A stretch of DNA of 64,000 bases from Massilia sp. 9096. GTDB lineage: Bacteria > Pseudomonadota > Gammaproteobacteria > Burkholderiales > Burkholderiaceae_D. The stretch lies in the NCBI RefSeq assembly GCF_000745265.1, contig NZ_JQNN01000001.1, forward strand, positions 124,001 to 188,000. Reading direction: 5' to 3'. This document shows positions 102 to 59,216 of this stretch, in pieces (the first letter of the stretch is position 1; the number at the start of each line of letters is the position of its first letter). The translations under genes and the position numbers were made by a program. The notes beneath the pieces are model-generated. The model searched no databases, was not told the origin of the DNA, and worked only from the letters and a program-made list of their open reading frames with translations.

Positions 102-2525
102 ATGCCGATCCGGATTGCTGCGCTGCCGCTGCTGCTGTTATCGGCGGCGCTGCTGGGCGCGAGCGCCCATGCCGCCGAACTGTTCCCGCTGCGCGACGTG
201 CGCCTCGGTCCCAGCCCCTTCCTCGAGGCCCAGGCCACCGACCTGCATTACCTGATGGCCCTCGAGCCCGACCGCCTGGCCGCGCCGTTCCTGCGCGAAG
301 CAGGCCTGGCGCCGAAGCAGCCCAGCTATGGCAACTGGGAATCGTCCGGCCTGGATGGCCACATGGGCGGCCATTACCTGTCGGCGCTGGCGTTGATGTT
401 CGCCTCGACCGGCGACCCGGAAGTCAAGCGCCGCCTGGACGACTTCGTGGCGGAACTCAAGCGCGCGCAGCAAGCCAACGCCGAGGGCGACACGCAGGGT
501 GAACTGCGCGGCTACCTCGGCGGCATCCCGGGCGGACGCGCGGCCTGGCGCGACATCGCCGCCGGCAAGCTCCACGCCGACAATTTTTCCGTCAACGGCA
601 AGTGGGTGCCCTGGTATAACCTGCACAAGCTGTTCGCCGGCCTGCGCGACGCCTGGCGCTACGCCGGCAACGAGGATGCGCGCACCATGCTGGTGGCGCT
701 GTCCGACTGGGCGCTGCGCCTCACCGGCCACCTGGGCGATGAACAGATGCAGGCCATGCTCAAGAGCGAGCATGGCGGCATGAACGAAGTGCTGGCCGAC
801 GTCTACCAGATGACAGGCGAGCGCAAATACCTGGACCTGGCGCTGCGCTTTTCGGACCGGCGCATCCTGCAGCCGCTCGAACAGGGCCAGGACCGGCTTA
901 CCGGCCTGCACGCCAATACCCAGATCCCGAAGGTGATCGGCTTCGAGCGCATCGCCGCGCTGAGCAGCGACCCGGCCACGCGACGCGACATGGCGCACGC
1001 CGCCGAATTCTTCTGGCAGACCGTGGTCGACAACCGCACGGTTGCCATCGGCGGCAACAGCGTCAAGGAGCACTTCCACGACGAACACGACTTCAGTCCG
1101 ATGTTGGAAGAGGTCGAGGGACCGGAGACCTGCAACACCTACAACATGCTCAAGCTGACCGGGATGCTGTTCGCAGCCTCGGACAAGGCGCTCTACGCCG
1201 ACTATTACGAGCGCGCGCTGTACAACCACATCCTCGCCTCGCAGCGCCCGGACAGCGGCGGCTTCGTCTACTTCACGCCGATGCGGCCGAACGGGTACCG
1301 GGTCTACTCGCAGGTCGACCAGGCGATGTGGTGCTGCGTCGGCTCGGGCATCGAGAGCCATGCGAAGTACGGCGAATTCATCTACGCCCACGAAGGCAGC
1401 GGCAAGGAGGCGGCGCTGTTCGTCAACTTGTTCATCCCGTCGACCCTCGATTGGAAAGCGCGGGGCGTGCGCATCACCCAGGCCAACACATTCCCCGACG
1501 AGGCCAGCACGCACATCACCGTGGATGAGGTGGGCGCGAGTGCGCACTTCGTGCTGAAGATCCGCTATCCGGCCTGGGTCGCCGCCGGCAAGCTGGGGCT
1601 GCGCGTGAACGGCAAGCCGGTCCGCATCGACGCGCGTCCGGGTCGCTACGTCAGCATCGAGCGCACCTGGCGCAAAGGCGACCGCGTCGACGTCGACCTG
1701 CCGATGACGACCCGCCTCGAGCAGATGCCGGACAAATCGAAGTACTACGCCGTGCTGCATGGGCCGATCGTGCTGGCCGCGAAGACCAACCCGTTCCCGA
1801 CCGAGCACCTGAATTTCCTGGCCGACGACACACGCATGGGCCATGTGCCGTCCGGCCAGGTCTGCCCGCTGGACGCGGCGCCGACCTTCGTGGCCGACGG
1901 CACGGACTTCATCAAGCGCTTCAAGCCGGTCCCCGGCAAGCCGCTGACCTTTACCGCACCGGCGGGCCTGGTGCGGGGCGGCACTGGAGCGGCCGCCGAG
2001 TTCATCCCCTTCTTCCGCCTGCACGACTCGCGCTATGTCGTCTACTGGCCGCAATCCACGCCCGGCGACTACGCGCGCGAACGCGTACAGGTGGCCGCGC
2101 GCGAGGCCGAACGGCTGGCGCTCGACGCGCGCACCGTCGACCAGGTGGCGCCGGGCGAGCAGCAGCCCGAAGTCGACCACCAGTTCAAAGGCGAGGGCGC
2201 GGAAATGGGCGTGGACAAGGGCCGCCATTGGCGGCGCGCGAAAGAGTGGTTCAGCTACCAGCTGAGCGATCCGAAGCGGGAGGCCAAGCTGCTGAGCCTG
2301 ACGTTTGCCGGTGCGGACGCGGGCAAGCGCGTCGACCTGGTGGTCAACGGCGAGCGGGTGGCGGACATCACGCTCGCCGCGGACGCGGCGCAGCCGTTCA
2401 CCACGCAGGATGTCGACTTGCCGCCTGAGCTCGTGCAGCGCGCCGGCGGCCGCCTGGAAGTGAAACTGGTCGCGCACGAGGGAGCGACGATGGCGCCCCT
2501 GTATGGCATGCGGCTGATGCGTTAA
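102..2525 (+). CDS. Secreted beta-L-arabinofuranosidase, GH127/GH146 type
   Basis: This protein of about 807 residues starts with an exported signal peptide (MPIRIAALPLLLLSAALLG, cleavage after AHA). The middle is the (alpha/alpha)6 barrel of DUF1680 proteins. The Cys/Glu metal-and-nucleophile set of GH127/146 is visible as ETC near residues 342-344 and MWCCVGSG with adjacent cysteines near 411-412; in the family these coordinate Zn and one Cys is the nucleophile. The C-terminal 300 residues are beta-rich. Family members release L-arabinofuranose from plant arabinans and glycoproteins. ATG codons at 99 and 102 and a GTG at 93 are possible starts; AGGTGA at 91-96 best fits ATG 102. The next genes encode a furanose importer, so released sugar is probably taken up by it. 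The exact linkage specificity cannot be read from sequence. Confidence 0.85.
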   Translation: MPIRIAALPLLLLSAALLGASAHAAELFPLRDVRLGPSPFLEAQATDLHYLMALEPDRLAAPFLREAGLAPKQPSYGNWESSGLDGHMGGHYLSALALMFASTGDPEVKRRLDDFVAELKRAQQANAEGDTQGELRGYLGGIPGGRAAWRDIAAGKLHADNFSVNGKWVPWYNLHKLFAGLRDAWRYAGNEDARTMLVALSDWALRLTGHLGDEQMQAMLKSEHGGMNEVLADVYQMTGERKYLDLALRFSDRRILQPLEQGQDRLTGLHANTQIPKVIGFERIAALSSDPATRRDMAHAAEFFWQTVVDNRTVAIGGNSVKEHFHDEHDFSPMLEEVEGPETCNTYNMLKLTGMLFAASDKALYADYYERALYNHILASQRPDSGGFVYFTPMRPNGYRVYSQVDQAMWCCVGSGIESHAKYGEFIYAHEGSGKEAALFVNLFIPSTLDWKARGVRITQANTFPDEASTHITVDEVGASAHFVLKIRYPAWVAAGKLGLRVNGKPVRIDARPGRYVSIERTWRKGDRVDVDLPMTTRLEQMPDKSKYYAVLHGPIVLAAKTNPFPTEHLNFLADDTRMGHVPSGQVCPLDAAPTFVADGTDFIKRFKPVPGKPLTFTAPAGLVRGGTGAAAEFIPFFRLHDSRYVVYWPQSTPGDYARERVQVAAREAERLALDARTVDQVAPGEQQPEVDHQFKGEGAEMGVDKGRHWRRAKEWFSYQLSDPKREAKLLSLTFAGADAGKRVDLVVNGERVADITLAADAAQPFTTQDVDLPPELVQRAGGRLEVKLVAHEGATMAPLYGMRLMR

Positions 2526-2573
2526 ATCCTGGCAAGGATATACAAAGCGATATCGGACACCCTAAAAAAATGA

Positions 2574-2603
2574 TTGGTTGAGCATCCCTCACTGTCGTAG
2601 TAT
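2574..2603 (+). promoter_or_regulatory. Candidate sigma-70 promoter for the ytfQ operon
   Basis: TTGGTT at 2574-2579 is followed 18 bases later by TAGTAT at 2598-2603, inside the AT-rich gap before ytfQ. Spacing fits a sigma-70 promoter; the hexamers are only moderate matches. Confidence 0.35.
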
Positions 2604-2619
2604 TGTGTCCAGAACAATA
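2601..2619. promoter_or_regulatory. Candidate operator TATTGT-N7-ACAATA before ytfQ
   Basis: A perfect 6-bp inverted repeat with a 7-base spacer overlaps the proposed -10 box and ends 12 bases before the ytfQ start codon. It contains several T-N11-A steps of the kind LysR proteins bind, and a LysR gene closes this cluster at 7168. Linking the two is inference; a site at the -10 would suit repression. Confidence 0.4.
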
Positions 2620-2631
2620 TCGGAGACAAGC

Positions 2632-3609
2632 ATGACGCTCACCCGCAGGTCTTTCCTGGGCGTGGCAGCCGGCGCGGGGGCACTCGCAGCCGTCGGCGTG
2701 CCCATCCCGGCCCTGGCCGCCAACAAACCCCTGACGATCGGCTTTTCCCAGGTCGGCGCCGAGAGCGAGTGGCGTACCGCCAACACCGCGTCGATCAAGG
2801 CCGCCGCCAGGCAGGCCGGCGTCAACCTGAAGTTCGCCGACGCCCAGCAGCGCCAGGAAAACCAGGTCAAGGCGATCCGCTCCTTCATCGCCCAGCGCGT
2901 CGACGTGATCGCGTTTTCGCCGGTGGTCGAAACCGGCTGGGACACCGTGCTGCGCGAAGCGAAAGCCGCGAAGATCCCGGTGATCCTCACCGACCGTTCG
3001 GTCAAGGTCAGCGATCCGTCGCTGTACGTCAGCTTCATCGGTTCGGACTTCGTCGAGGAAGGGCGGCGCGCCGGGCGCTGGCTGCTCGAGTACGACAAGC
3101 AGATGGGCGGCAAGCCGCTCAACATCGTCGAGCTGCAGGGCACGGTCGGCTCGGCGCCGGCCACCGACCGCAAGACCGGCTTTGCCGAGATCATCGCGAC
3201 CAATCCCAAGCTGAAGATCATCCGCTCGCAAACCGGCGACTTCACGCGCGCCAAGGGCAAGGAAGTGATGGAAGCCTTCCTGAAGTCCGAGGGCAAGAAC
3301 ATCAACGTGCTGTACGCGCACAACGACGACATGGCGATCGGCGCGATCCAGGCGATCGAGGAAGCCGGCCTGAAACCCGGCAAGGACATCGCCATCGTGT
3401 CGATCGACGGCGTGCGCGGCGCCTTCCAGGCCATGGTGCAGGGCAAGCTCAACGTCACGATCGAGTGCAACCCGCTGCTCGGTCCCACGCTGATGCAGAT
3501 CGCGCAGGCGGTCGTCGCCGGCAAGCCGGTCGCCAAGCGCGTGACGATCGAGGAGGGCGTGTTCCCGGCCGACGTCGCGGCCAAGGTCCTCCCGACCCGC
3601 AAGTACTGA
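2632..3609 (+). CDS. ytfQ: Galactofuranose-type ABC transporter, substrate-binding protein
   Basis: The protein is 325 residues with an N-terminal TRRSFLG twin-arginine motif and a hydrophobic stretch ending ALAA, so it is probably exported by Tat. The mature part is a periplasmic binding protein of the LacI/ribose-binding fold (Peripla_BP_4). Segments GFSQVGAESEWR at the start and YAHNDDMAIGAIQAIEEAG in the second lobe match E. coli YtfQ, which binds galactofuranose. The ATG at 2632 is preceded by CGGAGA; an upstream in-frame TTG at 2578 would place the Tat motif internally and is rejected. ytfR follows after 6 bases. With an arabinofuranosidase upstream, L-arabinofuranose is a plausible alternative ligand. 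Confidence 0.9.
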   Translation: MTLTRRSFLGVAAGAGALAAVGVPIPALAANKPLTIGFSQVGAESEWRTANTASIKAAARQAGVNLKFADAQQRQENQVKAIRSFIAQRVDVIAFSPVVETGWDTVLREAKAAKIPVILTDRSVKVSDPSLYVSFIGSDFVEEGRRAGRWLLEYDKQMGGKPLNIVELQGTVGSAPATDRKTGFAEIIATNPKLKIIRSQTGDFTRAKGKEVMEAFLKSEGKNINVLYAHNDDMAIGAIQAIEEAGLKPGKDIAIVSIDGVRGAFQAMVQGKLNVTIECNPLLGPTLMQIAQAVVAGKPVAKRVTIEEGVFPADVAAKVLPTRKY

Positions 3610-3615
3610 TCCGCC

Positions 3616-5127
3616 ATGACCGGGCCAGTGCTCGAAATGCGCGGCATCCACAAGCGCTTCCCCGGCGTGCGCGCGCTGGCGGACGCCGGCCTGCGCCTGT
3701 TCCCCGGCGAAATCCACACGCTGATGGGGCAGAACGGCGCCGGCAAGTCCACGCTGATCAAGGTGCTGACCGGCGTGTACCAGCCCGACGCGGGCAGCAT
3801 CGTGCTCGAAGGCCAGGCGATCCGGCCGCGCTCGACCCAGGAGGCGCAGAACCTCGGCATCAGCACGGTCTACCAGGAAGTCAACCTGTGCCCGAATCTG
3901 TCGGTGGCGGAGAACATCTTCATCGGGCGCTACCCGCGCCGCTTCGGCATGGTCGACTGGCGCGCGATGCGGGCCCAAGCCGCCGAGCTGCTGGCGCGCC
4001 TGCAGGTGAACGTGGACGTGCGCCAGCCGCTGGCCAACTATCCGCTGGCGATCCAGCAGATGGTCGCGATCGCGCGCGCCTTGAGTGTCCAGTGCCGCGT
4101 GCTGATCCTGGATGAGCCGACCTCCAGCCTGGACGAAGCCGAGGTGCAGACCCTGTTCGCGGCGCTGCGCCGCCTGCGCGAGCAAGGCATGGCGATCCTG
4201 TTCGTGACCCACTTCCTGGACCAGACCTATGCGATTTCCGACCGCATCACGGTAATGCGCAACGGCGAGCGCGAAGGCGAGTATCCGTGCGCCGAGCTGT
4301 CGCGCCTGGCCCTGGTGAACAAGATGATCGGCGCGCCGGCCGACAGCGCGCCGCTCGATGCGCCCGATACGGGCCACGAGGAAGAAGCAAGCGCCGGCGA
4401 GGTCCTCGTGCGCACGCATGCGCTCGCGCGCAAGGGCGCGCTCGCGCCGGTGGACGTGGAACTGCGCCGCGGCGAGCTGCTCGGGCTGGCCGGCCTGCTC
4501 GGCTCCGGCCGCACGGAAATGGCGCGCCTGCTGTTCGGCGCCGACAAGGCCGACGGCGGCGCCATCGATGTCAACGGCAAGGCGGTCACGTTCTCGACCC
4601 CGCGCGACGCGATTGCACAAGGCATCGGCTTCTGTTCGGAAGACCGCAAGCACGAGGGCGCGATCCTGGCGCTGTCGGTGCGCGAGAACCTGATCCTGGC
4701 GCTGCAGGCGCGCGCCGGGCTGTGGCGCGCGATCCCTTTCAAGCGCCAGCAGCAACTGGCCGAGGACTTCGTCAGGCGGCTCGGCATCAAGACCGCCAGC
4801 ATCGAGACGCCGATCGGTTCGCTCTCCGGCGGCAACCAGCAAAAGGTGCTGCTGGCGCGCTGGCTGGCGACCGAACCCCAGCTGATGATCCTCGACGAAC
4901 CCACGCGCGGCATCGACGTGCGCGCCAAGCAGGAAATCATGGATCATGTACGCCAGCTGTGCCGCCAGGGCATGGCCATCCTCTTCATTTCGTCCGAACT
5001 GCCGGAAGTGCTGCGCGTGGCCGACCGCGTGCTGGTGATGCGCGACCGCCAGGCCTGCGCCAGCTACCGGCGCGGCGAACTCGACGACGGCTCGGTGCTG
5101 CGCGCGATCGCCGGGGAGGGCGCATGA
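3616..5127 (+). CDS. ytfR: Galactofuranose-type ABC transporter, ATP-binding protein (two NBDs)
   Basis: The 503-residue protein has two fused nucleotide-binding domains, as in RbsA/YtfR sugar ATPases. NBD1 has Walker A GQNGAGKS (38-45) and Walker B VLILDEPTSSLD (about 162). NBD2 has the degenerate P-loop GLLGSGRTE (about 293) usual for this family, an intact LSGGNQQK signature (about 403) and MILDEPTRGIDV. The asymmetry between a weak and a strong site is normal in class-2 sugar importers. It works at the inner face of the membrane with the two permeases encoded next. Its stop overlaps the start of ytfT (ATGA), indicating translational coupling. Confidence 0.92.
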   Translation: MTGPVLEMRGIHKRFPGVRALADAGLRLFPGEIHTLMGQNGAGKSTLIKVLTGVYQPDAGSIVLEGQAIRPRSTQEAQNLGISTVYQEVNLCPNLSVAENIFIGRYPRRFGMVDWRAMRAQAAELLARLQVNVDVRQPLANYPLAIQQMVAIARALSVQCRVLILDEPTSSLDEAEVQTLFAALRRLREQGMAILFVTHFLDQTYAISDRITVMRNGEREGEYPCAELSRLALVNKMIGAPADSAPLDAPDTGHEEEASAGEVLVRTHALARKGALAPVDVELRRGELLGLAGLLGSGRTEMARLLFGADKADGGAIDVNGKAVTFSTPRDAIAQGIGFCSEDRKHEGAILALSVRENLILALQARAGLWRAIPFKRQQQLAEDFVRRLGIKTASIETPIGSLSGGNQQKVLLARWLATEPQLMILDEPTRGIDVRAKQEIMDHVRQLCRQGMAILFISSELPEVLRVADRVLVMRDRQACASYRRGELDDGSVLRAIAGEGA

Positions 5128-6170
5128 ACGCGCCCGTCCAGAGCGTCGCCCCGGACGCGGTCCAGGACCAGGCCACGCGCTTCGCGCTGCTGCGCCACCC
5201 GCTCGCGCGTCCGCTGGCCGCGCTGCTGGTGCTGCTGGCGCTCGACGCCGTGCTGGTGCCCGGGTTCTTCCACGTCGCGCTGCGCGACGGCCACTTGTAC
5301 GGCAGCGTGATCGACATCGCCAACCGCGCCGCGCCGCTGATGCTGGCCGCGCTCGGCATGACGCTGGTGATCGCCACGCGCGGCATCGACATCTCGGTGG
5401 GCGCGGTGGTGGCGCTGTCGGGGACCGTGGCGGCGATGCTGGTGAACGGCACACCCGGCGCCCCAGCCACGCCGCTCGGCACGGCCCTGGCGGCGGCGCT
5501 CGGCGTGGCCCTGCTGTGCGGCCTGTGGAACGGCGTGCTGGTGGCCGGCGTGAAGCTGCAGCCGATCGTCGCCACGCTGATCCTGATGACGGCCGGGCGC
5601 GGCCTGGCCCAGCTGCTCACCGACGGCCAGATCGTCACGGTGTATGAGGAGTCCTTCTTCACCCTCGGCAGCGGATACCTGGGCGGGCTGCCGGTCTCGC
5701 TGTACGTGGTGGCCGCGGTGTTCGCGCTGCTGCTGTTCCTGGCGCGCCGCACCGCGCTCGGCCTGTTCATCCAGGCGGTCGGCCTGAACCCGGTGGCGGC
5801 GCGCCTGGCCGGCCTGCGCACGGCGACCCTGATCGTGTCGGTCTACGCGGCCTGCAGCCTGTGCGCCGGCATGGCCGGGCTGCTCATCACCTCGAACATC
5901 AAGAGCGCCGACGCCAACAACGCCGGCCTGCTGCTCGAGCTCGACGCGATCCTGGCAGTGACGCTGGGCGGCACCTCGCTGGCCGGCGGCCGCTTCAGCC
6001 TGGCCGGTAGCCTGGTCGGCGCGTTGATCATCCAGACGCTGACCTACACCATCTATTCGCTGGGCGTGCCGCCCGAGGTGAACATGGTGGTCAAGGCGAT
6101 CGTCGTGTTCGCGGTGTGCATCTCGCAGTCGGGCGAGCTGCGCGCGCTGCGGCAAAGGAGGCCGGCATGA
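5124..6170 (+). CDS. ytfT: Galactofuranose-type ABC transporter, permease 1
   Basis: This 348-residue integral membrane protein belongs to the BPD_transp_2 (RbsC-like) family, with about ten hydrophobic segments. The family signatures GMTLVIATRGIDISVGAVVALSG and the loop VTLGGTSLAGGRFSLAGSLVG are present. The start is the ATG at 5124 overlapping the ytfR stop, and its own stop overlaps the start of the second permease; both overlaps are ATGA. A two-permease layout is what E. coli has for the YtfQRT-YjfF system, which supports the galactofuranose-type call over the one-permease ribose or xylose systems. Confidence 0.9.
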   Translation: MNAPVQSVAPDAVQDQATRFALLRHPLARPLAALLVLLALDAVLVPGFFHVALRDGHLYGSVIDIANRAAPLMLAALGMTLVIATRGIDISVGAVVALSGTVAAMLVNGTPGAPATPLGTALAAALGVALLCGLWNGVLVAGVKLQPIVATLILMTAGRGLAQLLTDGQIVTVYEESFFTLGSGYLGGLPVSLYVVAAVFALLLFLARRTALGLFIQAVGLNPVAARLAGLRTATLIVSVYAACSLCAGMAGLLITSNIKSADANNAGLLLELDAILAVTLGGTSLAGGRFSLAGSLVGALIIQTLTYTIYSLGVPPEVNMVVKAIVVFAVCISQSGELRALRQRRPA

Positions 6171-7135
6171 GCGCCGCCGTCAAACAGTCCTTGGCCATGG
6201 CCCCGTGGTTCACCTCCGCCATCACCGTGCTGCTGCTGGCGGCCATGCTGGGCGTCGGCGGCGCCGTGTATCCGGGGTTGCTGTCCGAGCAGGTGCTGTT
6301 CAACCTGCTGATCGATAACGCGCACCTGGTGGTGCTGGCGATCGGCATGGGCTTCGTGATCCTGTCGGGCGGAATCGACCTGTCGGTGGGCGCGGTGCTG
6401 GCCCTGTCGACGATGGCCTGCGCCTGGCTGCTGCAGAGCGCGCACTGGCACCCGGCGCTGGTGATCGTCTGCGTGCTGGCGGGCGGCGCGGCCTTCGGCG
6501 CGCTGATGGGGACCATCATCCACCTGTTCCGGCTGCAGCCTTTCATCGTCACGCTGGCCGGCATGTTCCTGGCGCGCGGCCTGTGTTACCTGATCAGCAC
6601 CGATTCGGTCGCGATCGACCAGCCGTTCTTCGCCGCGCTGTCGCAGGCCCAGGTGCACCTGCTCGGCGGCTTCCTGTCGCCCGGCGCGATCATCGCGCTG
6701 GTCGTGCTGCTGCTGGCGGTATGGCTGGCGCACTTCACGGCGTTCGGGCGCGCCGTGTACGCGGTCGGCGGCAACGAAGCCTCGGCGGCGATGATGGGCC
6801 TGGACGTCGGCCGCACGCGGGTGCTGGCGTATGCGCTGTCCGGTTTCTGCTCGGCGCTGGCCGGCCTGCTGTTCTCGGTCTACACGCTGTCGGGCTACGC
6901 GTTGCACGGGCAGGGCATGGAGCTCGATGCGATCGCGGCGGTCGTCATCGGCGGCATGCTGCTCACCGGCGGCTACGGCTACATCGCCGGAGCGCTGTCG
7001 GGTGTGCTGGTGCTGGGCGCGATCCAGACCCTGATCGCCTTCGACGGCACGCTCAGCTCGTGGTGGACGCGGATCGTGATCGGCACGCTGCTGCTGGTGT
7101 TCTGCGTGGTGCAGCGGCTGCTGTCCAAGGGGTGA
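6167..7135 (+). CDS. yjfF: Galactofuranose-type ABC transporter, permease 2
   Basis: The 322-residue RbsC-family permease has GMGFVILSGGIDLSVGAVLALS and the C-terminal motif IGGMLLTGGYGYIAGALSGVLV, both typical of YjfF. The start ATG at 6167 overlaps the ytfT stop and is preceded by AAAGGAGG (6154-6161), a strong ribosome binding site; an upstream in-frame candidate at 6116 lies inside ytfT and is rejected. It should form the heterodimeric membrane channel with YtfT. The LysR gene begins 32 bases after its stop, so it may be co-transcribed. Confidence 0.9.
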   Translation: MSAAVKQSLAMAPWFTSAITVLLLAAMLGVGGAVYPGLLSEQVLFNLLIDNAHLVVLAIGMGFVILSGGIDLSVGAVLALSTMACAWLLQSAHWHPALVIVCVLAGGAAFGALMGTIIHLFRLQPFIVTLAGMFLARGLCYLISTDSVAIDQPFFAALSQAQVHLLGGFLSPGAIIALVVLLLAVWLAHFTAFGRAVYAVGGNEASAAMMGLDVGRTRVLAYALSGFCSALAGLLFSVYTLSGYALHGQGMELDAIAAVVIGGMLLTGGYGYIAGALSGVLVLGAIQTLIAFDGTLSSWWTRIVIGTLLLVFCVVQRLLSKG

Positions 7136-7167
7136 AAATCCGGGGTCGAGAATGCTATGATGGGCCG

Positions 7168-8112
7168 ATGGACACGACCAACCCGAACTGGTTTCTCAAG
7201 GCGCGCCTCAAGACGCGCCAGCTGCTGCTGCTGATCGCGCTCGACGACTTCCGCAACATCCATCGTGCGGCCGAGGAGCTGCACATGACCCAGCCGGCCG
7301 CCTCCAAGCAGGTCAAGGACCTCGAGGAGATGCTCGGCGTGAAGCTGTTCGAGCGCCTGCCGCGCGGAATGGAGCCGACGCTGTACGGCGAGACCATGAT
7401 CCGCCACGCGCGCATGGCGCTCACCAGCCTGGCGCTGGCGCACGACGACATCGCCACGCTCAAGGCCGGCCTGTCGGGCCAGGTCGAGGTCGGGGTCATC
7501 ATGACGCCGGCCATGTCGCTGCTGCCGCGCGCGATCGCACGGGTGAAGCAGGAGGCGCCGCTGCTGCGCATCGGCGTGCAGCTCGAGACCAGCAACGTCC
7601 TGCTCGACAAGCTCCAGCGCGGCACGCTCGATTTCATGATCGGCCGCATCGTCGATGGCGGCAGCGCCGCGGCGGGCCTGATCTACGAGGAGCTGACCGA
7701 GGAGCCGGCCTGCGCGGTGGTACGCCCCGGCCATCCATTGCTGGACCATCCGGCACCGACCCTGGCCGACATCGCCGGGCGTCCGTGGATCCTGCCGCCG
7801 CACGGCAGCATCCTGCGCTACCGCTTCGACATGATGTTCCGCCGCGCCGGCCTGGCGCCGCCGGCCAACGTGGTCGACACCACCGCCATGCTGGTCATCA
7901 CCGCCTTGCTGCAGCAGACCGATTCGCTGCACGTGATGCCGCGCCAGGTCGCGCAGTATTACGAGTCCCTGAACGTGATGCGCATCCTGCCGATCGATCT
8001 GCCGTGCACGATGGACGCCTTCGGCATCGTGCGCCAGCAGGACCATCTGCTGTCGCCGGGGGCCGAGCTGCTGCTGCACGCGGTACGGGCGTCGGCGCAG
8101 GAAATCTACTGA
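7168..8112 (+). CDS. LysR-family regulator, likely regulator of the furanose uptake genes
   Basis: The 314-residue protein has an N-terminal winged HTH (about residues 10-70, with HRAAEELHMTQPAASKQVKDLE) and a LysR substrate-binding domain from about residue 95. The HTH and the wing (LPRGMEPTLYGE) look like the GbpR/CbbR-like branch that controls sugar-binding protein operons in alpha- and betaproteobacteria. It is transcribed in the same direction as the transporter, not divergently, which is less common for LysR genes. The regulatory target is inferred from position. ATG at 7168 is chosen because the HTH begins about 10 residues later. Confidence 0.8.
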   Translation: MDTTNPNWFLKARLKTRQLLLLIALDDFRNIHRAAEELHMTQPAASKQVKDLEEMLGVKLFERLPRGMEPTLYGETMIRHARMALTSLALAHDDIATLKAGLSGQVEVGVIMTPAMSLLPRAIARVKQEAPLLRIGVQLETSNVLLDKLQRGTLDFMIGRIVDGGSAAAGLIYEELTEEPACAVVRPGHPLLDHPAPTLADIAGRPWILPPHGSILRYRFDMMFRRAGLAPPANVVDTTAMLVITALLQQTDSLHVMPRQVAQYYESLNVMRILPIDLPCTMDAFGIVRQQDHLLSPGAELLLHAVRASAQEIY

Positions 8113-34262: not shown

Positions 34263-34892
34263 CTAATGCGCGATCGCCCCGCCGGCCAGGTTCACGCGGT
34301 CGCCGGTGCGGAAGTCGGGCGTGGTTTCCTGGGTGACGACCTGGGTGCTGCCGTCGTCCATGTGCAGGGTGATGCGGTAGACGCGGTCGGAATCGCTGCC
34401 GCTGCCGGTGCTGCCTGCGGTCCCGCTGCCCCCCACGGCCGCGGCGCCCACCGCGCCGGCGCCCGAGGTGCTGGCGCTCTGGCGCGGCACGACTTCGATC
34501 GCGGCCACGGTCGCGTTCGGGCTGGAGCTGGGGGCGGTGACGCTGCTGCTGGCCATGCCGCCGCCCGTGCCGCTGCTGCCGGAGCTGCCGCTGCTGCCCG
34601 AACTGCCGGCGCTGCCCGTGGTGCCCGAGCCGGACTGGCCACCGGTACTGGAGCTGCCCGAGCCGCCGTAGCCGGCCGAGCCGCTGGTGCCGGTGCCGGC
34701 CCCGGTGCCGGACATGCCGCCGCTCCCGCCGCTGTCGCCGGTGCTGCCGCTTTCCATGCCGCTGCCGGTGCTGCCGCTGGCGCCGCTGCTGCCGCTGCTA
34801 CCGCCCATGCCCCGCATCGAATCGCACGCGGTCAGTGACAGTGCCAGCAAGCCCGCCAGCAGCACGCTCTGGTGTTTTTGCTTCATGATCAA
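34263..34892 (-). CDS. Gly/Ser-rich lipoprotein
   Basis: The 209-residue protein has a lipoprotein signal (LLALSLTAC lipobox). About 85 residues of Gly/Ser/Thr-rich low complexity follow (GSSGSSGASGSTGSG and similar), then a short folded end: YRITLHMDDGSTQVVTQETTPDF and RTGDRVNL. That end resembles the C-terminal strand motif of 17-kDa/SlyB-like outer membrane lipoproteins, though the glycine-zipper part is replaced by the linker. It is probably anchored in the outer membrane with a flexible spacer. It converges on the TraB/GumN gene with 6 bases between stops. The repetitive DNA is prone to length variation. Confidence 0.65.
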   Translation of the reverse strand: MIMKQKHQSVLLAGLLALSLTACDSMRGMGGSSGSSGASGSTGSGMESGSTGDSGGSGGMSGTGAGTGTSGSAGYGGSGSSSTGGQSGSGTTGSAGSSGSSGSSGSSGTGGGMASSSVTAPSSSPNATVAAIEVVPRQSASTSGAGAVGAAAVGGSGTAGSTGSGSDSDRVYRITLHMDDGSTQVVTQETTPDFRTGDRVNLAGGAIAH

Positions 34893-48314: not shown

Positions 48315-49574
48315 TCAGCCGGCCTTTTGCGCGGCTTCTTCGGCCGCATGGTGGGGGAAACGGTCCATCCGCGACAGGACCGTGAACAGTTTCATCCAGA
48401 TACCGGTGACGGCCAGCGTGGCGGCGCCGCCGATGACGATCGCGCGCACCAGGCCGAACCAGCTGGCGGTCAGGCCCGATTCGAATTCGCCCAGCTCGTT
48501 GGACGCGCCGATGAACACCGAGTTGACCGCGCTGACGCGGCCGCGGATCTCGTCCGGCGTCTCGTACTGCACCAGCAGATGGCGGATGTAGACGCTGACC
48601 ATGTCGCCGCAGCCGAGCAGGAACAGCGCCACCAGCGCCACCGCGAACTGGCCCGTCAGGCCCATCACCACGGTGGACAGGCCGAACAGCGCGACCCCGC
48701 CGAACATCCACTTGCCGACGTGGCGCTTGATCGGCCAGAAGGCCAGCGCGATCGAACACAGGGTGGCGCCGGCGCCGGGCGCGGTGCGCAGCCAGCCCAG
48801 GCTGGTCGGGCCGGCGTGCAGGACGTCGTGCGCGTAGGCCGGCAGCAGGGCGGTGGCGCCGCCGAACAGCACCGCGAACAGGTCGAGCGAGATCGCGCCC
48901 AGCACGATCGGGCGCGACCAGACGAAGCGGATGCCCTCGAACAGCGTGTGCCAGCTGACCGGCGCCGTGCTGCGCGCCTGCGGGGCGCTCTTGGTGCACG
49001 ACATCAGGATCACGGCGAGCACCAGCAGCGTGCTCGATACCGCATACACGACGTTCGGGCCGAAGCGGTATATCAGGCCGCCCAGCACCGGACCGAGGAT
49101 GATCGCCACCTGCATGCTGGAGGAGGCCAGCGCCACCGCCTGCGAGAAGTCCTTGGTCGAGACCAGGTTGCGCAGCACCGCCTGCTGCGCCGGCATCATG
49201 AAGGCGCGTGCGCTGCCATAGATGACCAGCACCGCGTACACCGGCCACACCGTGTGGCTGCCGGACAGCGTGAAGCCGACCAGCAGCAGGCTGCACAGCA
49301 GCTGGGTGGCCTGGCAGGCGATCACGATGTTGCGGCGGTCGTGGGTATCGGCGACGTGGCCGGCCCACAGGATCAGCACCAGGAAAGGCGCGAACTGCGC
49401 CAGGCCGATCAGGCCGAGGTCGAACAGGCTGTGGGTGATCTGGTAGACCTGCCAGCCGACCGCCACGCTCTGCATCTGGACGGCGAGCGTGCCGAGGAAG
49501 CGCGAGGACAGGTAGAACGAGACGTTGGGGATGCGCAGGACGCCGAGGCGTCCCGTGGAAGAAGGCACGGACAT
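48315..49574 (-). CDS. MFS transporter (MFS_3/EntS-like)
   Basis: The protein is 419 residues with about 11-12 TM segments. VGWQVYQITHSLFDLGLIGLAQFAPFL and GHVADTHDRRNIVI (motif A) identify an EntS/DHA3-type exporter, and YGSARAFMMPAQQAVLRNLV is typical of this group. It may export a siderophore or another small molecule, but no biosynthetic genes are near. ATG 49574 (MSVPSST) is preferred; an in-frame ATG at 49601 adds nine residues. Confidence 0.8.
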   Translation of the reverse strand: MSVPSSTGRLGVLRIPNVSFYLSSRFLGTLAVQMQSVAVGWQVYQITHSLFDLGLIGLAQFAPFLVLILWAGHVADTHDRRNIVIACQATQLLCSLLLVGFTLSGSHTVWPVYAVLVIYGSARAFMMPAQQAVLRNLVSTKDFSQAVALASSSMQVAIILGPVLGGLIYRFGPNVVYAVSSTLLVLAVILMSCTKSAPQARSTAPVSWHTLFEGIRFVWSRPIVLGAISLDLFAVLFGGATALLPAYAHDVLHAGPTSLGWLRTAPGAGATLCSIALAFWPIKRHVGKWMFGGVALFGLSTVVMGLTGQFAVALVALFLLGCGDMVSVYIRHLLVQYETPDEIRGRVSAVNSVFIGASNELGEFESGLTASWFGLVRAIVIGGAATLAVTGIWMKLFTVLSRMDRFPHHAAEEAAQKAG

Positions 49575-49721
49575 AGAAATGGAGAGGTGGCAAGAATGCA
49601 AACTCCATTGTGCCCGAACTATTCGATATACGCTGTCTTGACAGGGCCAACGTAATGCAGCGGTAATGCGCGGACGGCGTGGCCGCCCGCGCTGCGGCGT
49701 CCGATCACGCCGCGGCGGCCC

Positions 49722-52947: not shown

Positions 52948-52976
52948 AAAAAAGCCCGTCCTGCAAGGGACGGGCT
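52948..52976 (-). terminator. Rho-independent terminator for the minus strand
   Basis: AGCCCGTCC (52953-52961) and GGACGGGCT (52968-52976) form a perfect stem, with five to six A on the left giving the U-run. It would end the transcript of the frameshifted gene at 53068-53527. Confidence 0.8.
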
Positions 52977-53067: not shown

Positions 53068-53527
53068 TCAAGCTTTTCCTGGGCCCGGACTGGCGCAGTA
53101 GGCCATAGCCTGTGCCTGCTCATCGAGCGTGGCGGGATAAGCCTCGGCAAAGCTGGCTTCGTACAGTTCACGCATGCGATTGCCGCTGTCGAGGCGGACC
53201 TGCTGGCCGTCGCTGCCACGCATGCCGACATAGGGCGAGTAGTGCAGGAAGTAGCCGAACACCTGTTCACAGTCGGCGGCGTACTTCATGGTGTCGAGGA
53301 TGTGGTAGTGCCAAAAAGAGGTCGACGTCCATTGACGGTGCAATATACGCATCTGGGAACAGCTTCATCACGCACAGGAAACGACGGTATTCTTTTTTCA
53401 CGGCATTGGCTTTATCCAGGCTCCAGCCGTCTCCCGAGTTCACGTGCATCAGCTTGCTTTTGATCCGGGTCAAGTCGAGTTTCGTGACTGCCATATTTGC
53501 TGTGGTAAACCCGTCATTCGCGTTCAT
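53068..53527 (-). pseudogene. Frameshifted paralogue of the repeat protein gene at 54133
   Basis: Two overlapping minus-strand frames together encode one homologue of the protein at 54133-54933. The first frame, from ATG 53527, gives GDGWSLDKANAVKKEYRRFL and ends its similarity at SMDVDL. The second frame resumes with FWHYHILDTMKYAADCEQVFGYF. The shift falls at a run of five T on the coding strand (AAAAA at 53313-53317); removing one T restores the frame. It has a ribosome binding site (GGAGAAGC) and a single tail unit AMAYCASPGPGKA instead of seven. It may be a real pseudogene, a slippage switch or a sequencing error in a homopolymer. Confidence 0.7.
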
Positions 53528-54040: not shown

Positions 54041-54069
54041 AAAAGGCCCGTCCTGGAAAGGAACGGGCC
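54041..54069 (-). terminator. Rho-independent terminator of the repeat protein gene
   Basis: GGCCCGT (54045-54051) pairs with ACGGGCC (54063-54069); A-rich plus-strand bases to the left provide the U-run for the minus-strand transcript. It lies 64 bases after the stop codon. Confidence 0.75.
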
Positions 54070-54132: not shown

Positions 54133-54933
54133 TCAAGCCTGAAGCGCCAATCGGGTGTGCTGGACGGGCTGGTTCAAGTGCTTGCCGGGGCCGCTCGAAC
54201 AGTAGGCGATCGCTGCCGCCGGGTTCAAATGCTTGCCGGGACCGCTCGAGCAGTAGGCGATCGCTGCCGCCGGGTTCGAATGCTTGCCGGGGCCGCTCGA
54301 GCAGTAGGCGATCGCTGCCGCCGGGTTCGAATGCTTGCCGGGACCGCTCGAGCAGTAGGCGATCGCTGCCGCCGGGTTCGAATGCTTGCCGGGGCCGCTC
54401 GAGCAATAGGCGATCGCTGCCGCCGGGTTCGAATGCTTGCCGGGGCCGCTCGAGCAATAGGCGATACCTGCCGCCTGGTTGGCGTGTTGGCCGGGGCCGC
54501 TGGAGCAGTAGGCGGTGCCGGCGACAGATGGCGTGATAGCCTCGAGCGAATCCGGGTAGGCGTCGCCAAAGACGCTTTCATAGAGTTCCTGCATGCGCTT
54601 GCCACTGCTCAGGCGGTATTGCGCGTCCTCTTCGGAGCCGTCCATGCCGACGTAGGGATAATGGTGCAGGAAGTAGCCGAACACTTGTTCGCAATCGGCG
54701 GCGTATTTCATTGTATCAAGGATGTGGTAGTGCCAGAAGGTGTCGACATCCACGATCGGTGCCGTGTCCTCGTTCGGAAATAGTTTCATCAGGCACAGGA
54801 AACGGCGGTATTCCTTTTCGACGGCGGCAGCCTTGTCCAGACTCCATCCTTCTCCCGATATATGCATCAGCTTCATTTTGATGGGTTCCAGATCGAGTTG
54901 CATTACGGCGTTGAGCAGGTCGTTGGCGTTCAT
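54133..54933 (-). CDS. GRDP-like domain protein with seven 17-residue Cys/His repeats
   Basis: The protein is 266 residues. The first 140 form a compact domain (GEGWSLDKAAAVEKEYRRFL, VDTFWHYHILDTMKYAADC, FGYFLHHYPYVG, LYESVFGDAYP) that resembles bacterial 'glycine-rich domain-containing protein-like' proteins; its role is unknown. The tail is seven near-perfect units of AIAYCSSGPGKHSNPAA, 51 bp each, every unit with one Cys and one His. The last unit (HLNQPVQHTRLALQA) closes the protein. There is no signal peptide or TM segment. ATG 54933 has AGAGGA six bases upstream; ATG 54939 is too close to it. The paralogue at 53068 has just one unit. Metal binding or post-translational modification of the repeats is possible but unproven. 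Confidence 0.75.
   Translation of the reverse strand: MNANDLLNAVMQLDLEPIKMKLMHISGEGWSLDKAAAVEKEYRRFLCLMKLFPNEDTAPIVDVDTFWHYHILDTMKYAADCEQVFGYFLHHYPYVGMDGSEEDAQYRLSSGKRMQELYESVFGDAYPDSLEAITPSVAGTAYCSSGPGQHANQAAGIAYCSSGPGKHSNPAAAIAYCSSGPGKHSNPAAAIAYCSSGPGKHSNPAAAIAYCSSGPGKHSNPAAAIAYCSSGPGKHLNPAAAIAYCSSGPGKHLNQPVQHTRLALQA
54177..54519. repeat. 51-bp coding tandem repeat array
   Basis: Seven copies with exact 51-bp spacing (for example AGTAGGC at 54201 and again at 54252). Copies differ by only a few bases (gggacc/ggggcc, cagtag/caatag, tcaaat/tcgaat), so the array expanded recently and probably varies between strains. It encodes the tail of the protein at 54133-54933. Confidence 0.9.
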
Positions 54934-55156
54934 GATCATCCTCTGTAGTTGATGTCTTGTATTAACTGCTTCCCTAGTTTTGGTAATGGCTCATCAGGCC
55001 ATCAGCTAACGCATATTTACTTCTTGAATGATGACGTCAAGTGACATTTGCTGAGTTCTTGACGTGCGTTGCATATAGTCAATGTATTGTATACAACTAA
55101 TACGGTTATTGATATTTTTCAATCTTTCAACGAGGTCAGTAAAGTCCTACAAAATG

Positions 55157-55174
55157 TGATGTGCAATCACATCA
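55157..55174. promoter_or_regulatory. Inverted repeat TGATGTG-CAAT-CACATCA
   Basis: A perfect 7-bp inverted repeat lies in the 311-base AT-rich gap between the repeat protein gene and the first kinase. Read outward it also gives TGTGA-N7-TCACA, one base wider than a CRP site. It could control the repeat protein gene, whose start is 224 bases away on the minus strand. A TGACGTCA palindrome lies at 55032-55039. Confidence 0.4.
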
Positions 55175-55244: not shown

Positions 55245-57095
55245 TCAGATGACGGCTGAGCCGGCGCTGTGCGCCTGCTGGAGGGACAGGGAGTAAGGCG
55301 GGCTGTCGACGACCGGCGCCGATACGATGACGGTCGTGCCGGCGCCGGGCTCGCTGAACACGGCGCAGGTGCCGCCCAGGATCACGATGCGCTCTTCGAT
55401 CCCGACCAGGCCGAACGAGCCGAATTTGTTACGCACGCCCGGCGGCAAACCGCAACCGTTGTCCTTGACGCTCATCGACAGCCAGCCCGCGCTCAGGCGC
55501 AACTCGACCACCACCTTGGTCGCGTGCGCATGACGCACGACGTTGGTCAGCGACTCCTGCAGGATACGGAAAAACGCGGTGGCGCAATGGTCGGGTAATT
55601 CAATCTCGCCATGATCGTCGCGCACCTCGCATTGGATGCCGGTGCGGCGCTGGAATTGGTCGACCTGCCATTCGACCGCGGCCGACAGGCCCAGGTCGAG
55701 CACGGTCGGACGCAAATCGTTGATGATCTGGCGCACGCTCTTGATGATGGTGTCGATCTGCTGCAGCGTTGCGCGTGCGCGCGCATGCAGGATGCGGTGC
55801 GTGGGCCCGGTGCGCGAGGCCAGGATCTCCGCCTCGATGCGCAGCGCCAGCAGGTTCTGGCCGAGGTCGTCGTGGATCTCGCGTGCGATGCGTTTGCGCT
55901 CGAGTTCCTTGATCTGGTAGGCGTGATCGGCCAGGCGGCGCAGCTTCTGGTGCGACAGCTGCAATTTGTTCTGGCTTGCGCGCAGCTCGCTGGTCATCTC
56001 TTGCGCGAGCTGGAGGGCGGCGCGACGCGACGAGGTCAGGGTGTGCAGCAGGGCATACAGCAGCATCGTGCCGATGAAGCCGAAGACCATGATCAGCTTT
56101 GGGTAATAGATGTCGAACTCGGTATAAAGTGCGGACTTCGGCACGCTGTACACGGTTTTCCAAAGCCGGCCATTGAAGTTGATTGGCAGCGTGACGGAAA
56201 ATGTATCGTCGCCGCTATCCAGCGCTGGCTTGGGATTGGCGGCAGAGCCGCGACTGTCAAATAAGGTTTGCACGTATTTGATCGGATGCCCGTCATAATC
56301 GAGGCGGGGCCCCACGTTGAAAAGGGTCATGCGCACGCCGGAAATCGGCATCTCGTCGAGCACGCCATGCAGCAATTTGGGAAGGCTGAACGCGATTCCG
56401 AGCGAGCCGATATAGGCGGCCCGGCGTTGTTCCACGGTGTCATGTGCAGCGCCAGGACGGTAGACCGCAATGCGCATGCCGAGGTGGGCGTCATTCGGTC
56501 TGGAGAGCGGAGGAATCGGTGTGCCGGCGGCTTGCACGGTACCTTCGTCGCGCTCGATCCTCAATTGGTCTCCGAAACTGAGATTGGCCATCAGATCGAC
56601 GCCATAGTGGCCGGGACTGAACAGATCAGGTTCGATGTAATAAACGACCAGGTAGGCAGGACGAATGCCACGCGGAGTGATATCGAGCGGCTCGGTGGAA
56701 TGGGTAAAAGCTTGCATGTCCTGCCGCAGTCTGGTCACGAATGCCTGTTTCTCTTCATCGGTCACGTAGACGGCGACATTGAAATTGTCAAACGCAGGGT
56801 AGTGCTTTTTCAAGTCGAGGCGACAAACGTATTCGTGGAACTGGCGGTGCGAAAAGTTGTGTGAACTCTGGATCATGCTGGCAGTGCGCCGCAGCAGGTC
56901 GGTATAGGACTTGACGCGCAGGGCGATCACGTTCTGTGCATAGGCAGCATCGTTGACAAAGCGCTGGCGCGCATCGCTCTCGATCGAACGGTCCATGACG
57001 ACATAAGCCAAGCCCCCGATTACGGACGATAACAGCACGCCGGTCCAGAACGAGAGCCGGGTGATCAAGAACGCGTCTCGCAATAACGTCGACAT
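55245..57095 (-). CDS. CHASE-type membrane histidine kinase (NarX-like), copy 1
   Basis: The 616-residue protein has TM1 (LSFWTGVLLSSVIGGLAYVV), an extracytoplasmic sensor of about 290 residues with the CHASE pattern (PAYLVVYYIEPDLF, ALLHTLTSS after TM2), TM2 (LIMVFGFIGTMLLYALLH), a coiled coil, HisKA_3 with phospho-His in IAREIHDDLGQNLLALR and an HATPase (ILQESLTNVVRHAHA, NGCGLP). The NarX-type kinases normally pair with LuxR-type regulators; none is adjacent. ATG 57095 follows AGGAA. Its catalytic half is almost identical in DNA to the next kinase. Confidence 0.88.
   Translation of the reverse strand: MSTLLRDAFLITRLSFWTGVLLSSVIGGLAYVVMDRSIESDARQRFVNDAAYAQNVIALRVKSYTDLLRRTASMIQSSHNFSHRQFHEYVCRLDLKKHYPAFDNFNVAVYVTDEEKQAFVTRLRQDMQAFTHSTEPLDITPRGIRPAYLVVYYIEPDLFSPGHYGVDLMANLSFGDQLRIERDEGTVQAAGTPIPPLSRPNDAHLGMRIAVYRPGAAHDTVEQRRAAYIGSLGIAFSLPKLLHGVLDEMPISGVRMTLFNVGPRLDYDGHPIKYVQTLFDSRGSAANPKPALDSGDDTFSVTLPINFNGRLWKTVYSVPKSALYTEFDIYYPKLIMVFGFIGTMLLYALLHTLTSSRRAALQLAQEMTSELRASQNKLQLSHQKLRRLADHAYQIKELERKRIAREIHDDLGQNLLALRIEAEILASRTGPTHRILHARARATLQQIDTIIKSVRQIINDLRPTVLDLGLSAAVEWQVDQFQRRTGIQCEVRDDHGEIELPDHCATAFFRILQESLTNVVRHAHATKVVVELRLSAGWLSMSVKDNGCGLPPGVRNKFGSFGLVGIEERIVILGGTCAVFSEPGAGTTVIVSAPVVDSPPYSLSLQQAHSAGSAVI
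55312..56080 (-). repeat. Near-identical kinase-core block, copy 1
   Basis: About 770 bp coding for the coiled coil, HisKA_3 and HATPase of this kinase match 57314-58082 at an offset of 2002 bp. By eye I count roughly a dozen mismatches (about 98% identity). Similarity falls sharply at the sensor side. Confidence 0.85.
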
Positions 57096-57246
57096 TGGAA
57101 TTCCTGATGCGTGATTCGGCCATAACTGCCGTTGCAATATTGATTATTCGAACGTACGAAATTTGGGTAAGCCGCGAACCTAGCTGTTCTTATAGTTGCA
57201 GCGGAAGATGAATTTCGGTCAGGGGGCGCAGACCCAATCCTTCCTG

Positions 57247-59097
57247 TCAGATGACGGCCGAGCCGGCGTTATGCTCCTGATGGTTCTGCAGAAGATGGCC
57301 AGGCGCATCGAGCACCGGCGCCGATACCATGACGGTCGTGCCGGCGCCGGGCTCGCTGAATACCGCGCAGGTGCCGCCCAGGATCATGATGCGCTCTTCG
57401 ATCCCGACCAGGCCGAACGAGCCGAATTTGTTACGCACGCCCGGCGGCAAACCGCAACCGTTGTCCTTGACGCTCATCGACAGCCAGCCCGCGCTCAGGC
57501 GCAACTCGACCACCATCTTGGTCGCGTGCGCATGACGCACGACGTTGGTCAGCGACTCCTGCAGGATACGGAAAAACGCGGTGGCGCAATGGTCGGGCAA
57601 TTCAATCTCGCCATGATCGTCGCGCACCTCGCACTGGATGCCGGTGCGGCGCTGGAATTGGTCGACCTGCCATTCGACCGCGGCCGACAGGCCCAGGTCG
57701 AGCACGGTCGGACGCAAATCGTTGATGATCTGGCGCACGCTCTTGATGATGGTGTCGATCTGCTGCAGCGTTGCGCGTGCGCGCGCATGCAGGATGCGGT
57801 GCGTGGGCCTGGTGCGCGAGGCCAGGATCTCCGCCTCGATGCGCAGCGCCAGCAGGTTCTGGCCGAGGTCGTCGTGGATCTCGCGTGCGATGCGTTTGCG
57901 CTCGAGTTCCTTGATCTGGTAGGCATGATCGGCCAGGCGGCGCAGCTTCTGGTGCGACAGCTGCAATTTGTTCTGGCTCGCGCGCAGCTCGCTGGTCATC
58001 TCTTGCGCGAGCTGGAGCGCGGCGCGACGCGACGAGGACAGGGCGTGCAGCAGGGCATACAGCAGCATCGTGCCGATGAAGCTGAACGCCATCATCAGCT
58101 TCGGATAGTAGGCGTCGAGTTTCGTGTACAGGGCAGTCTTGTGCACACTGTAGATGGCTTTCCACAGGCGGCCGTTGAATTCCAGCGGCAACGAGACGGA
58201 AAATACATCGGCGCCGGTGTCGAGAGGAGGACTTGGATCGCGCACGGTCCCGTGACTGTCGAACAGCGTGAGCAGGTGGCCCGGGTTATCGAGGTTGGGC
58301 GGAAGAGGGTGCCAGGTATCGTGCAGGGTCATTCGCAAGGGCGCGAGCGAGATTTCTTCCATCACGCTTTTCAGCAGCTTGGTCACGTTGAGTGCAATAC
58401 CCATCGAACCACGGTAGGCAGCACGGCGTTGCGCGACGTTGTCAAGCGGCATACCGATCCGATAAACGGGCATGCGCATGCCCAGGTAGGTCTCGTTCGG
58501 GTGGGACATGTGCGGGACCGGCGTGCCACTGGACTGTAAGCTGCCTTCGTCACGCTCTCGCGACAGCATATCGCCGAAATAGGGATTGGCCAGCAGGTCG
58601 AATCCGTACATTGCGGGAACCTGTGCCTGCGGCTCGATGTAGGCAACCGCGAGATAAGCCGGACGGATGCCCGGCGGCAGGATATCGAGATCGGCAGCCC
58701 GCGGCCCGAGGAAGCCCTTTTCCGCACGTAGTTGGCGAACGAAGGCCTCGCGTTGGTCGGCGCGTACATAAGTCGCAAAATTGATGAAGTCGAGCGCCGG
58801 ATAGTCCCTGGGCAGATTCAGTCCCTGCACGTATTCGTGGAACAGGGTCTGGGTCAGGCTGTCCGAGCTTTGCATGGCGCTGGCGCTGCCGCGCAGCAGG
58901 TCGGCGTAGGACTTGGTGCGCACTGCGATCACGCTTTGCGCGTACTTCGCGTGGTTGAGGAAACGCTCCTGCGCATCGCTTTCGATCGAACTCGCTGTCG
59001 CAAGATAGGCCCCGCCGCCGACGATGGACGACAGCAGCAGTCCGGTGCGGAACGAAAACCGGGTGAGTGAAAATGCGTTTCTCAGTACTGTCAACAT
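57247..59097 (-). CDS. CHASE-type membrane histidine kinase (NarX-like), copy 2
   Basis: The 616-residue protein has the same architecture as the kinase downstream: TM1 (FSFRTGLLLSSIVGGGAYLA), CHASE-like sensor, TM2 (LMMAFSFIGTMLLYALLHAL), HisKA_3 with IAREIHDDLGQNLLALR and HATPase. The sensor domain is only moderately similar (SIESDAQERFLNHAKYAQSVIAVRTKSYADLLR is a shared start), while the last 300 residues are nearly identical. No response regulator gene is adjacent. I chose ATG 59097, aligning with the other copy's start and preceded by AGGA; an ATG at 59127 adds ten residues. It is the upstream member of the pair; 151 bases separate the two. Confidence 0.88.
   Translation of the reverse strand: MLTVLRNAFSLTRFSFRTGLLLSSIVGGGAYLATASSIESDAQERFLNHAKYAQSVIAVRTKSYADLLRGSASAMQSSDSLTQTLFHEYVQGLNLPRDYPALDFINFATYVRADQREAFVRQLRAEKGFLGPRAADLDILPPGIRPAYLAVAYIEPQAQVPAMYGFDLLANPYFGDMLSRERDEGSLQSSGTPVPHMSHPNETYLGMRMPVYRIGMPLDNVAQRRAAYRGSMGIALNVTKLLKSVMEEISLAPLRMTLHDTWHPLPPNLDNPGHLLTLFDSHGTVRDPSPPLDTGADVFSVSLPLEFNGRLWKAIYSVHKTALYTKLDAYYPKLMMAFSFIGTMLLYALLHALSSSRRAALQLAQEMTSELRASQNKLQLSHQKLRRLADHAYQIKELERKRIAREIHDDLGQNLLALRIEAEILASRTRPTHRILHARARATLQQIDTIIKSVRQIINDLRPTVLDLGLSAAVEWQVDQFQRRTGIQCEVRDDHGEIELPDHCATAFFRILQESLTNVVRHAHATKMVVELRLSAGWLSMSVKDNGCGLPPGVRNKFGSFGLVGIEERIMILGGTCAVFSEPGAGTTVMVSAPVLDAPGHLLQNHQEHNAGSAVI
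57314..58082 (-). repeat. Near-identical kinase-core block, copy 2
   Basis: Counterpart of 55312-56080 in the same orientation. Direct repeats of this size and identity allow gene conversion or deletion of the 2 kb between them to yield a single chimeric kinase. Confidence 0.85.
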
Positions 59098-59216
59098 CAC
59101 CATCCTGAGCTTGCAGTAGTCATCCACTGCAACTTACGCACTTCGGATGTGCAGCGAACCTATCTATCCAACTAGTTGTGGCTTTGCGGGTTCCGGACAG
59201 GTGTAAGATGCAAGCC

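Follow-up and report, generated by a model that had tools for sequence, protein, structure and literature searches.

The DNA analysed here, a 64,000-nucleotide stretch of the Massilia sp. 9096 genome (the window), contains a gene for a protein with a seven-unit repeat tail and, immediately upstream, a gene for a CHASE histidine kinase. The protein carries one motif in many copies, varies between strains and is nearly always encoded next to a membrane sensor of its own, features that suggest a peptide signal not described before and a receptor to match. We propose, with a probability of roughly 0.4, that the two genes form a module in which the repeat protein would be the multi-copy, oxygen-controlled precursor of a peptide signal and the kinase its receptor. 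This proposal is made because the sensor half of the kinase travels with the core of the tail, over a kinase half and a carrier domain that are alike between copies. The sequences themselves establish the pairing of the two genes, a sensor and a tail private to each copy, constraint on the core of the tail, and an FNR/Anr-type box in most of the relatives examined. An earlier sequence-only reading of this DNA had concentrated on the tail and was silent on the kinase, the main partner, and on the fact that each copy has a sensor and a tail of its own. The features are collected in Table 1.

Table 1. Features of the repeat gene locus in the window.
Feature	Position	Strand	Basis
MFS protein (MFS_1, MFS_3 'transmembrane secretion effector') of the syntenic block	48315-49601	-	
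Terminator-like hairpin 3' of the paralogue; stem resembles that at 54045-54069	52953..52976	-	
Frameshifted paralogue: same N-domain, one unit (AYCASPGPGKA)	53068..53527	-	ORFs, sequence; searched as two pieces
Intrinsic-terminator-like hairpin 3' of the repeat gene	54045..54069	-	Stem of 9 pairs (7 GC) with a T-rich tail
Repeat-tailed protein, 266 aa: helical GRDP-like N-domain and 7-unit tail	54133..54933	-	ORF list, sequence, homologues, Pfam
51-bp tandem array, seven units	54171..54514	-	TRF and unit DNA
Later cores, one per 51 bp	last 54190-54207	-	Sequence
First six-residue core, AYCSSG	54496..54513	-	Sequence; core limits from within-tail versus between-tail identity
N-terminal domain, invariant W-H-Y-H-I-L-D, D-C, H-H	54550..54933	-	Alignments of 12 and 50 sequences
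Overlapping candidate -10 elements TACATT and TACAAT, 29 and 24 bp, respectively, from the box centre	55081..55091	-	
FNR/Anr-type box, one mismatch, TTGAAAAATATCAA	55109..55122	-	Consensus match
CHASE histidine kinase immediately upstream of the repeat gene	55245..57137	-	Pfam, hydropathy
Second CHASE-type histidine kinase	57247..59127	-	Versus first kinase: kinase half 94% identical, sensor 52%

The open reading frame of the repeat gene spans 54133-54939, and the start at 54933 matches the database copy (P0001). The 17-residue unit AYCSSGPG[KQ]H... is present seven times in the protein, and TRF places the array at a period of 51 bp with 6.7 copies, 93% matches and a score of 569, compared with a score of 78 for the runner-up among the 14 rows of the window. 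The seven near-identical repeats described in the sequence-only reading are therefore borne out by the ORF, the sequence and TRF. Because units 2-6 differ pairwise by 0-3 of 51 bases, the array was amplified recently in the window strain. The earlier claim of recent amplification holds for this array and does not serve as an explanation of the family, in which the units of one tail differ at many synonymous sites and the core is unchanged. By inspection, neither an export signal nor a membrane segment was seen in the window protein. At E ≤ 0.001 the window genome contains two copies only, the array gene and the one-unit paralogue. This paralogue with a common front domain had also been pointed out before; it exists, and its reading frame is broken, being split over two overlapping ORFs by a shift in or near a T-run at ~53311-53320 that is either a true mutation or a sequencing slip, the two being indistinguishable. 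Both copies are followed by terminator-like hairpins, a class of site of which four were found in the scanned stretch and 2.8 were expected. Elsewhere in the window, TRF detects several overlapping short tandem arrays with periods of 9, 18, and 27 (34568-34804).

The AlphaFold2 model of the N-terminal domain (mean pLDDT 74) contains nothing but helices and loops. The window protein scores 22.2 bits against the GRDP-like Pfam family PF07173, just under the gathering cut-off of 22.7, and the relatives at L104 and L112 score 24.2 and 27.6 bits, respectively; a profile search of the window protein gave no match to the TIGR04222 domain. A protein search that scored 7998 candidates returned at least 1636 database relatives at E ≤ 0.001. 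In the wider phylum, a related domain was found in 20 of 299 sampled genomes, a count that includes the window's own genome and one congener. Several of these proteins end in Cys-bearing tails, some of them with Gly-Cys-rich termini and, judged by eye, membrane segments, and the one relative that was tested carries a TIGR04222 domain together with a WHxH region related to the window N-domain. Passages of one source propose some TIGR04222 proteins with Cys-rich tails as MNIO substrates, and the word GRDP does not occur in the main text of that source (PMC12452194). A short GRDP-like protein ending in NPCAATRCR (L149 of genome G196, 217-7183) is followed by genes for a TauD-like dioxygenase, a methyltransferase, a pentapeptide-repeat protein, and a UvrA-like ABC protein; the group has the appearance of a small biosynthetic cluster that brings its own self-resistance genes.

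The tails of relatives were compared in two sets. Among the best 120 of at least 1636 relatives, close ones found with a Cys-type query, the tails contain 815 Cys residues that are preceded by an aromatic residue in 99% of cases and by Ala at -2 in 98%, and are followed by Ala at +1 (95%), Gly/Ser at +2 (97%), and Pro at +3 (95%); His is not fixed in these tails. The broad set comprises 113 tails from family genomes and from named loci (76 distinct, from the best 80 of 197 confirmed), two of 115 ORFs having been dropped for unread bases. The constant part of the unit in relatives is Ala-[Tyr/Phe/Trp/His]-[Cys/Ser], and of the 113 tails, 52 are of the Cys type and 61 of the Ser type; their different majority cores number 54. 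The choice between Cys and Ser largely follows genus in these sequences: every tail from Janthinobacterium (20/20), Pseudoduganella (15/15), and Rugamonas (9/9) is Ser-type, Massilia has 32 Cys-type and 4 Ser-type tails (strain BJB1822, with 2 Ser, is counted separately), and Duganella has 3 and 7. His occurs at less than 0.5 per unit in 98 of the 113 tails. An RPxL-like motif, often FYxxRPxL, lies within the last 25 residues of 63 of the 113 tails (L034-L109, L138-L144), by eye mostly Ser-type ones.

The conservation of the core was examined in an alignment of 1031 units from the 111 tails with at least three units. The alignment was anchored on [ASGV][YFWH][CS], and core positions 0 to 2 are constant by construction because they are part of the search pattern. 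At the three positions that follow the pattern, units of the same tail agree at 0.92, 0.83, and 0.81, compared with 0.36, 0.17, and 0.28 between tails, and beyond the core the within-tail agreement drops to 0.65 or less. At core positions +1 to +3 within the 111 tails, pS is 0.48 and pN is 0.086 (ratio 0.18), the linker has a pN/pS of 0.67, and the core pN is below the linker pN in 105 of the 111 tails. Given a pS of 0.48 and a pN of 0.086 in the cores, the alike cores across the family are therefore not merely young copies. The comparison demonstrates, at the level of sequence, that a six-residue core, A-[YFWH]-[CS]-x-x-x, is under constraint inside each tail; each lineage keeps its copies to one core sequence, and lineages differ.

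The kinase has hydrophobic stretches at ~30-48 and ~348-366, a CHASE domain at 94-272, and HisKA_3 and HATPase_c domains. By a sequence pattern, 74 of the 76 named loci have such a kinase immediately upstream of the repeat gene and in the same orientation, and tblastn with the window kinase finds it in all 76; in the two loci missed by the pattern, the kinase ends ~0.26 kb before the repeat gene (L046) or a contig edge falls inside the kinase piece (L039). Since the surroundings of these loci are also syntenic (glnS is present in 73 of 76), the adjacency in named loci could come from synteny alone. The contig of L062, labelled as a Streptosporangiaceae MAG, also carries a kinase and two repeat genes, and the label is probably a binning error. 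The N-domain is matched at E ≤ 0.001 in 45 of 145 family genomes, 40 of them strongly (E ~1e-15 or better); the five weak-match genomes (G001, G023, G063, G085, and G104) were excluded from the pairing count. Among the matches listed, a kinase sensor lies within 4 kb of the repeat gene in 38 of the 40 strong-match genomes, the exceptions being G025, where the match is near a contig start, and G009, a fragmentary genome with the weakest match. The two genes are head-to-head in four genomes (G058, G115, G062, and G016), and within 20 kb of these sites glnS, the MFS gene, and the small XRE-like gene were not found. These four genomes represent three sites, because the congeneric G058 and G115 share neighbours (TPP enzyme). 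One kinase accompanies two repeat genes in 20 of the 74 pattern-scored loci, and the pairing is therefore not strictly 1:1. No kinase lies within 20 kb of the second G062 copy (L141), and in G081, G100, and G128 a kinase is present and no repeat gene was found in the surrounding 20 kb.

Two or three kinase-repeat units occur in tandem in seven named loci, and the window has two kinase genes in a row, then the intact repeat gene and the broken one. In comparisons of tandem copies, identity is 87-97% for the kinase halves (70% in two comparisons with the short third copy of L041) and 52-65% for the sensors; the N-domains are 84-99% identical and the tails dissimilar. Weighing against the proposal, kinase sensors commonly evolve faster than the kinase part. 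At the second hydrophobic helix of the window pair, DNA identity steps up from ~50-80% to 97-100%, and it drops again in the last 100 bp; each of the five other profiled loci has a similar step, in L038 a less sharp one, at about the same place in the alignment (residues 340-380). DNA profiles of six loci contain two alike blocks, the kinase and the N-domain, with a diverged stretch between them, so that one conversion tract is insufficient as an explanation. By sequence comparison, then, sensor and tail are private to each copy, and the kinase half and N-domain are alike between copies.

The association of sensor and tail was also measured as a correlation of distances. Over 86 pairs the correlations are 0.60 for sensor and tail, 0.57 for N-domain and tail, and 0.48 for kinase and tail, and the partial correlations with the other two fixed are 0.39, 0.33, and -0.21, respectively; the sensor-tail and N-domain-tail partial correlations each exceed all 500 permutations. 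In a swap test, tails were exchanged within six multi-cassette loci with 13 cassettes, which keeps genome relationships (L041, with unread bases, and the window, which did not qualify, were omitted). The true sensor-tail arrangement (r 0.71) is the best of 192; the ranks of the other combinations are 2 for sensor-kinase, 7 for N-domain-tail, 8 for kinase-N-domain, 10 for sensor-N-domain, and 77 for kinase-tail. Swapping thus costs most for sensor and tail, a match that linked descent of whole cassettes could also give, because cassettes are inherited as units.

The FNR/Anr consensus is TTGATNNNNATCAA. Matches to it with at most one mismatch number four in the 64-kb window, compared with 0.41 expected. 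Of the 115 350-bp regions upstream of repeat genes, many of which are from related strains and hence not independent, 75 contain a box with at most one mismatch and 38 a perfect box, where shuffles that keep the composition of each 50-bp piece give an expectation of 1.45 and 0, respectively; upstream of the kinase the box is found in 19 of 95 regions. Within the interval of 24-35 bp from the box centre that was searched, 43 of the 75 regions have the start of their best -10-like hexamer at 28-29 bp, which is the spacing of class II sites. A simple scan found no sigma-70 promoter at the window box. An inverted repeat, TGATGTG-ATTG-CACATCA, also lies upstream of the repeat gene (55157-55174).

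A Pfam scan of 20 neighbours found no protease or modifying enzyme recurring beside the repeat gene, in agreement with the earlier remark that there is no maturation enzyme nearby. The MFS gene, the only transporter gene noticed at the usual locus, is present in 61 of the 76 named loci, lies directly 3' of the repeat gene in L143, and is absent at the four rearranged sites; it could encode the exporter of the peptide at the usual locus. No export or processing gene was found to be common to all sites, which, like the lack of a visible export signal, counts against the precursor proposal.

Systems of the agr and ComX/ComP type have a gene for a peptide pheromone precursor beside that for the cognate histidine kinase. 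The window system resembles them in this adjacency and in having a variable sensor half, a common kinase half, and a variable core; it differs in placing many cores behind a folded domain, in its CHASE sensor, in its Gram-negative Oxalobacteraceae host, and in lacking an exporter or maturation enzyme common to all sites. A CHASE-domain histidine kinase, DhkA, answers the peptide SDF-2 in Dictyostelium, where the peptide comes from the larger protein AcbA (PMC1863423, PMC7316887). The same principle, a CHASE kinase and a peptide cut from a larger protein, may apply here; DhkA/SDF-2 is a eukaryotic system, and the passages concerned mention neither a repetitive precursor nor gene linkage to the receptor. 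Like TIGR04222 and other GRDP-like proteins, the window protein has a related WHxH region before a low-complexity or Cys-bearing tail, but it has no TIGR04222 match and no membrane segment by inspection, and the core motif of its tail is ordered. Buf_EGKCG proteins, as portrayed in passages of PMC12452194, combine 17-residue Cys repeats, each with two EGKCG motifs, with Sec signals and linkage to MNIO genes; the window protein shares the 17-residue repeats with Cys, whereas none of the other three features was seen for it.

It is somewhat unlikely that the tail acts instead inside the cell, as a multivalent docking array whose A-aromatic-Cys/Ser motifs bind a cytoplasmic partner, perhaps of the same pathway, and tune the kinase response under low oxygen. 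No export signal was seen by inspection, the motifs are arrayed on free linkers (pN/pS 0.67), the repeat gene is paired with a kinase, and both the identity of the aromatic residue and Cys/Ser switch between lineages, all of which would suit docking; the tail, however, goes with the periplasmic sensor and not with the cytoplasmic half (kinase-tail rank 77 of 192, partial correlation -0.21). The tail could also be a RiPP precursor in which an enzyme with its gene at another site, such as an MNIO, modifies Cys/Ser or aromatic-Cys/Ser pairs and the kinase senses the product, a reading that we consider unlikely. The sequence-only reading had raised the multi-core precursor, and this is the better half of that reading: as in RiPP precursors, a carrier region, the N-domain, is followed by repeated core sequence, and yet no modifying enzyme was found linked to the locus. 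An MNIO gene is located ~71 kb from the repeat gene in the window genome (G000:C1:249678-250469, outside the window) and ~47-76 kb from it in G018, G106, G040, and G094, distances that probably reflect synteny. MNIO genes are present in 33 of the 38 genomes with the gene-kinase pair versus 52 of the 107 others, and the MNIO-substrate proposal for TIGR04222 proteins in passages of PMC12452194, together with the WHxH kinship of one such protein, points the same way. Against this, the five pair genomes that lack an MNIO include G058 and G115, which have Cys-type tails, and 61 of 113 tails are Ser-type. YcaO, present in 117 of 145 family genomes, does not discriminate.

The association of sensor and tail may also reflect nothing more than linked inheritance of the fast-evolving parts of an old cassette; the repeat protein would then have an unrelated task, for example as a low-oxygen or redox protein, and would be the kinase's output or target. 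The FNR-type box and the tight linkage of the cassette would fit such an account, as would the finding that other cassette parts also correlate above most swaps; we regard it as improbable, because the core is held within tails and not between lineages and because two separate homogenised blocks flank a diverged stretch. Metal storage by Cys and His, which the sequence-only reading had entertained, is favoured by the Cys and His in every unit of the window strain. Among relatives it fails, since Ser replaces Cys in 61 of the 113 tails and 98 are His-poor; conserved Cys/His ligands are absent from the family repeats, and a metal-storage protein was rejected as a candidate. A neutral linker is opposed by the strong core constraint, and either of these last two roles for the tail is very improbable.

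In the proposed module of precursor and receptor, low oxygen would turn on expression of the repeat protein, whose GRDP-like domain would carry the tail, and the tail would serve to release or display many copies of a short peptide. The peptide would get to the periplasm or the outside by secretion or by release from dying kin, where the periplasmic CHASE sensor of the same cassette would recognise it, and the cytoplasmic kinase half, alike between cassettes, would relay the signal to a response regulator whose gene lies at another site. Tandem duplication, with joint divergence of sensor and core afterwards, would give rise to new cassettes. We tentatively extend this to a form of peptide communication or kin recognition in Oxalobacteraceae, in which a leaderless, oxygen-controlled precursor may show or release lineage-specific hexapeptides that are read by the matching CHASE receptor, with specificities multiplying via cassette duplication.

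No such system is described, by title or opening of the abstract, among the full-text literature matches listed, a search whose scope excludes most subscription journals. If the proposal is true, peptide signals of dozens of specificities would be in use in a large family, with at least 1636 relatives, that spans Massilia, Janthinobacterium, Duganella, Rugamonas, and Pseudoduganella, a ligand class would be suggested for bacterial CHASE kinases, and the GRDP-like domain would have a suggested job.
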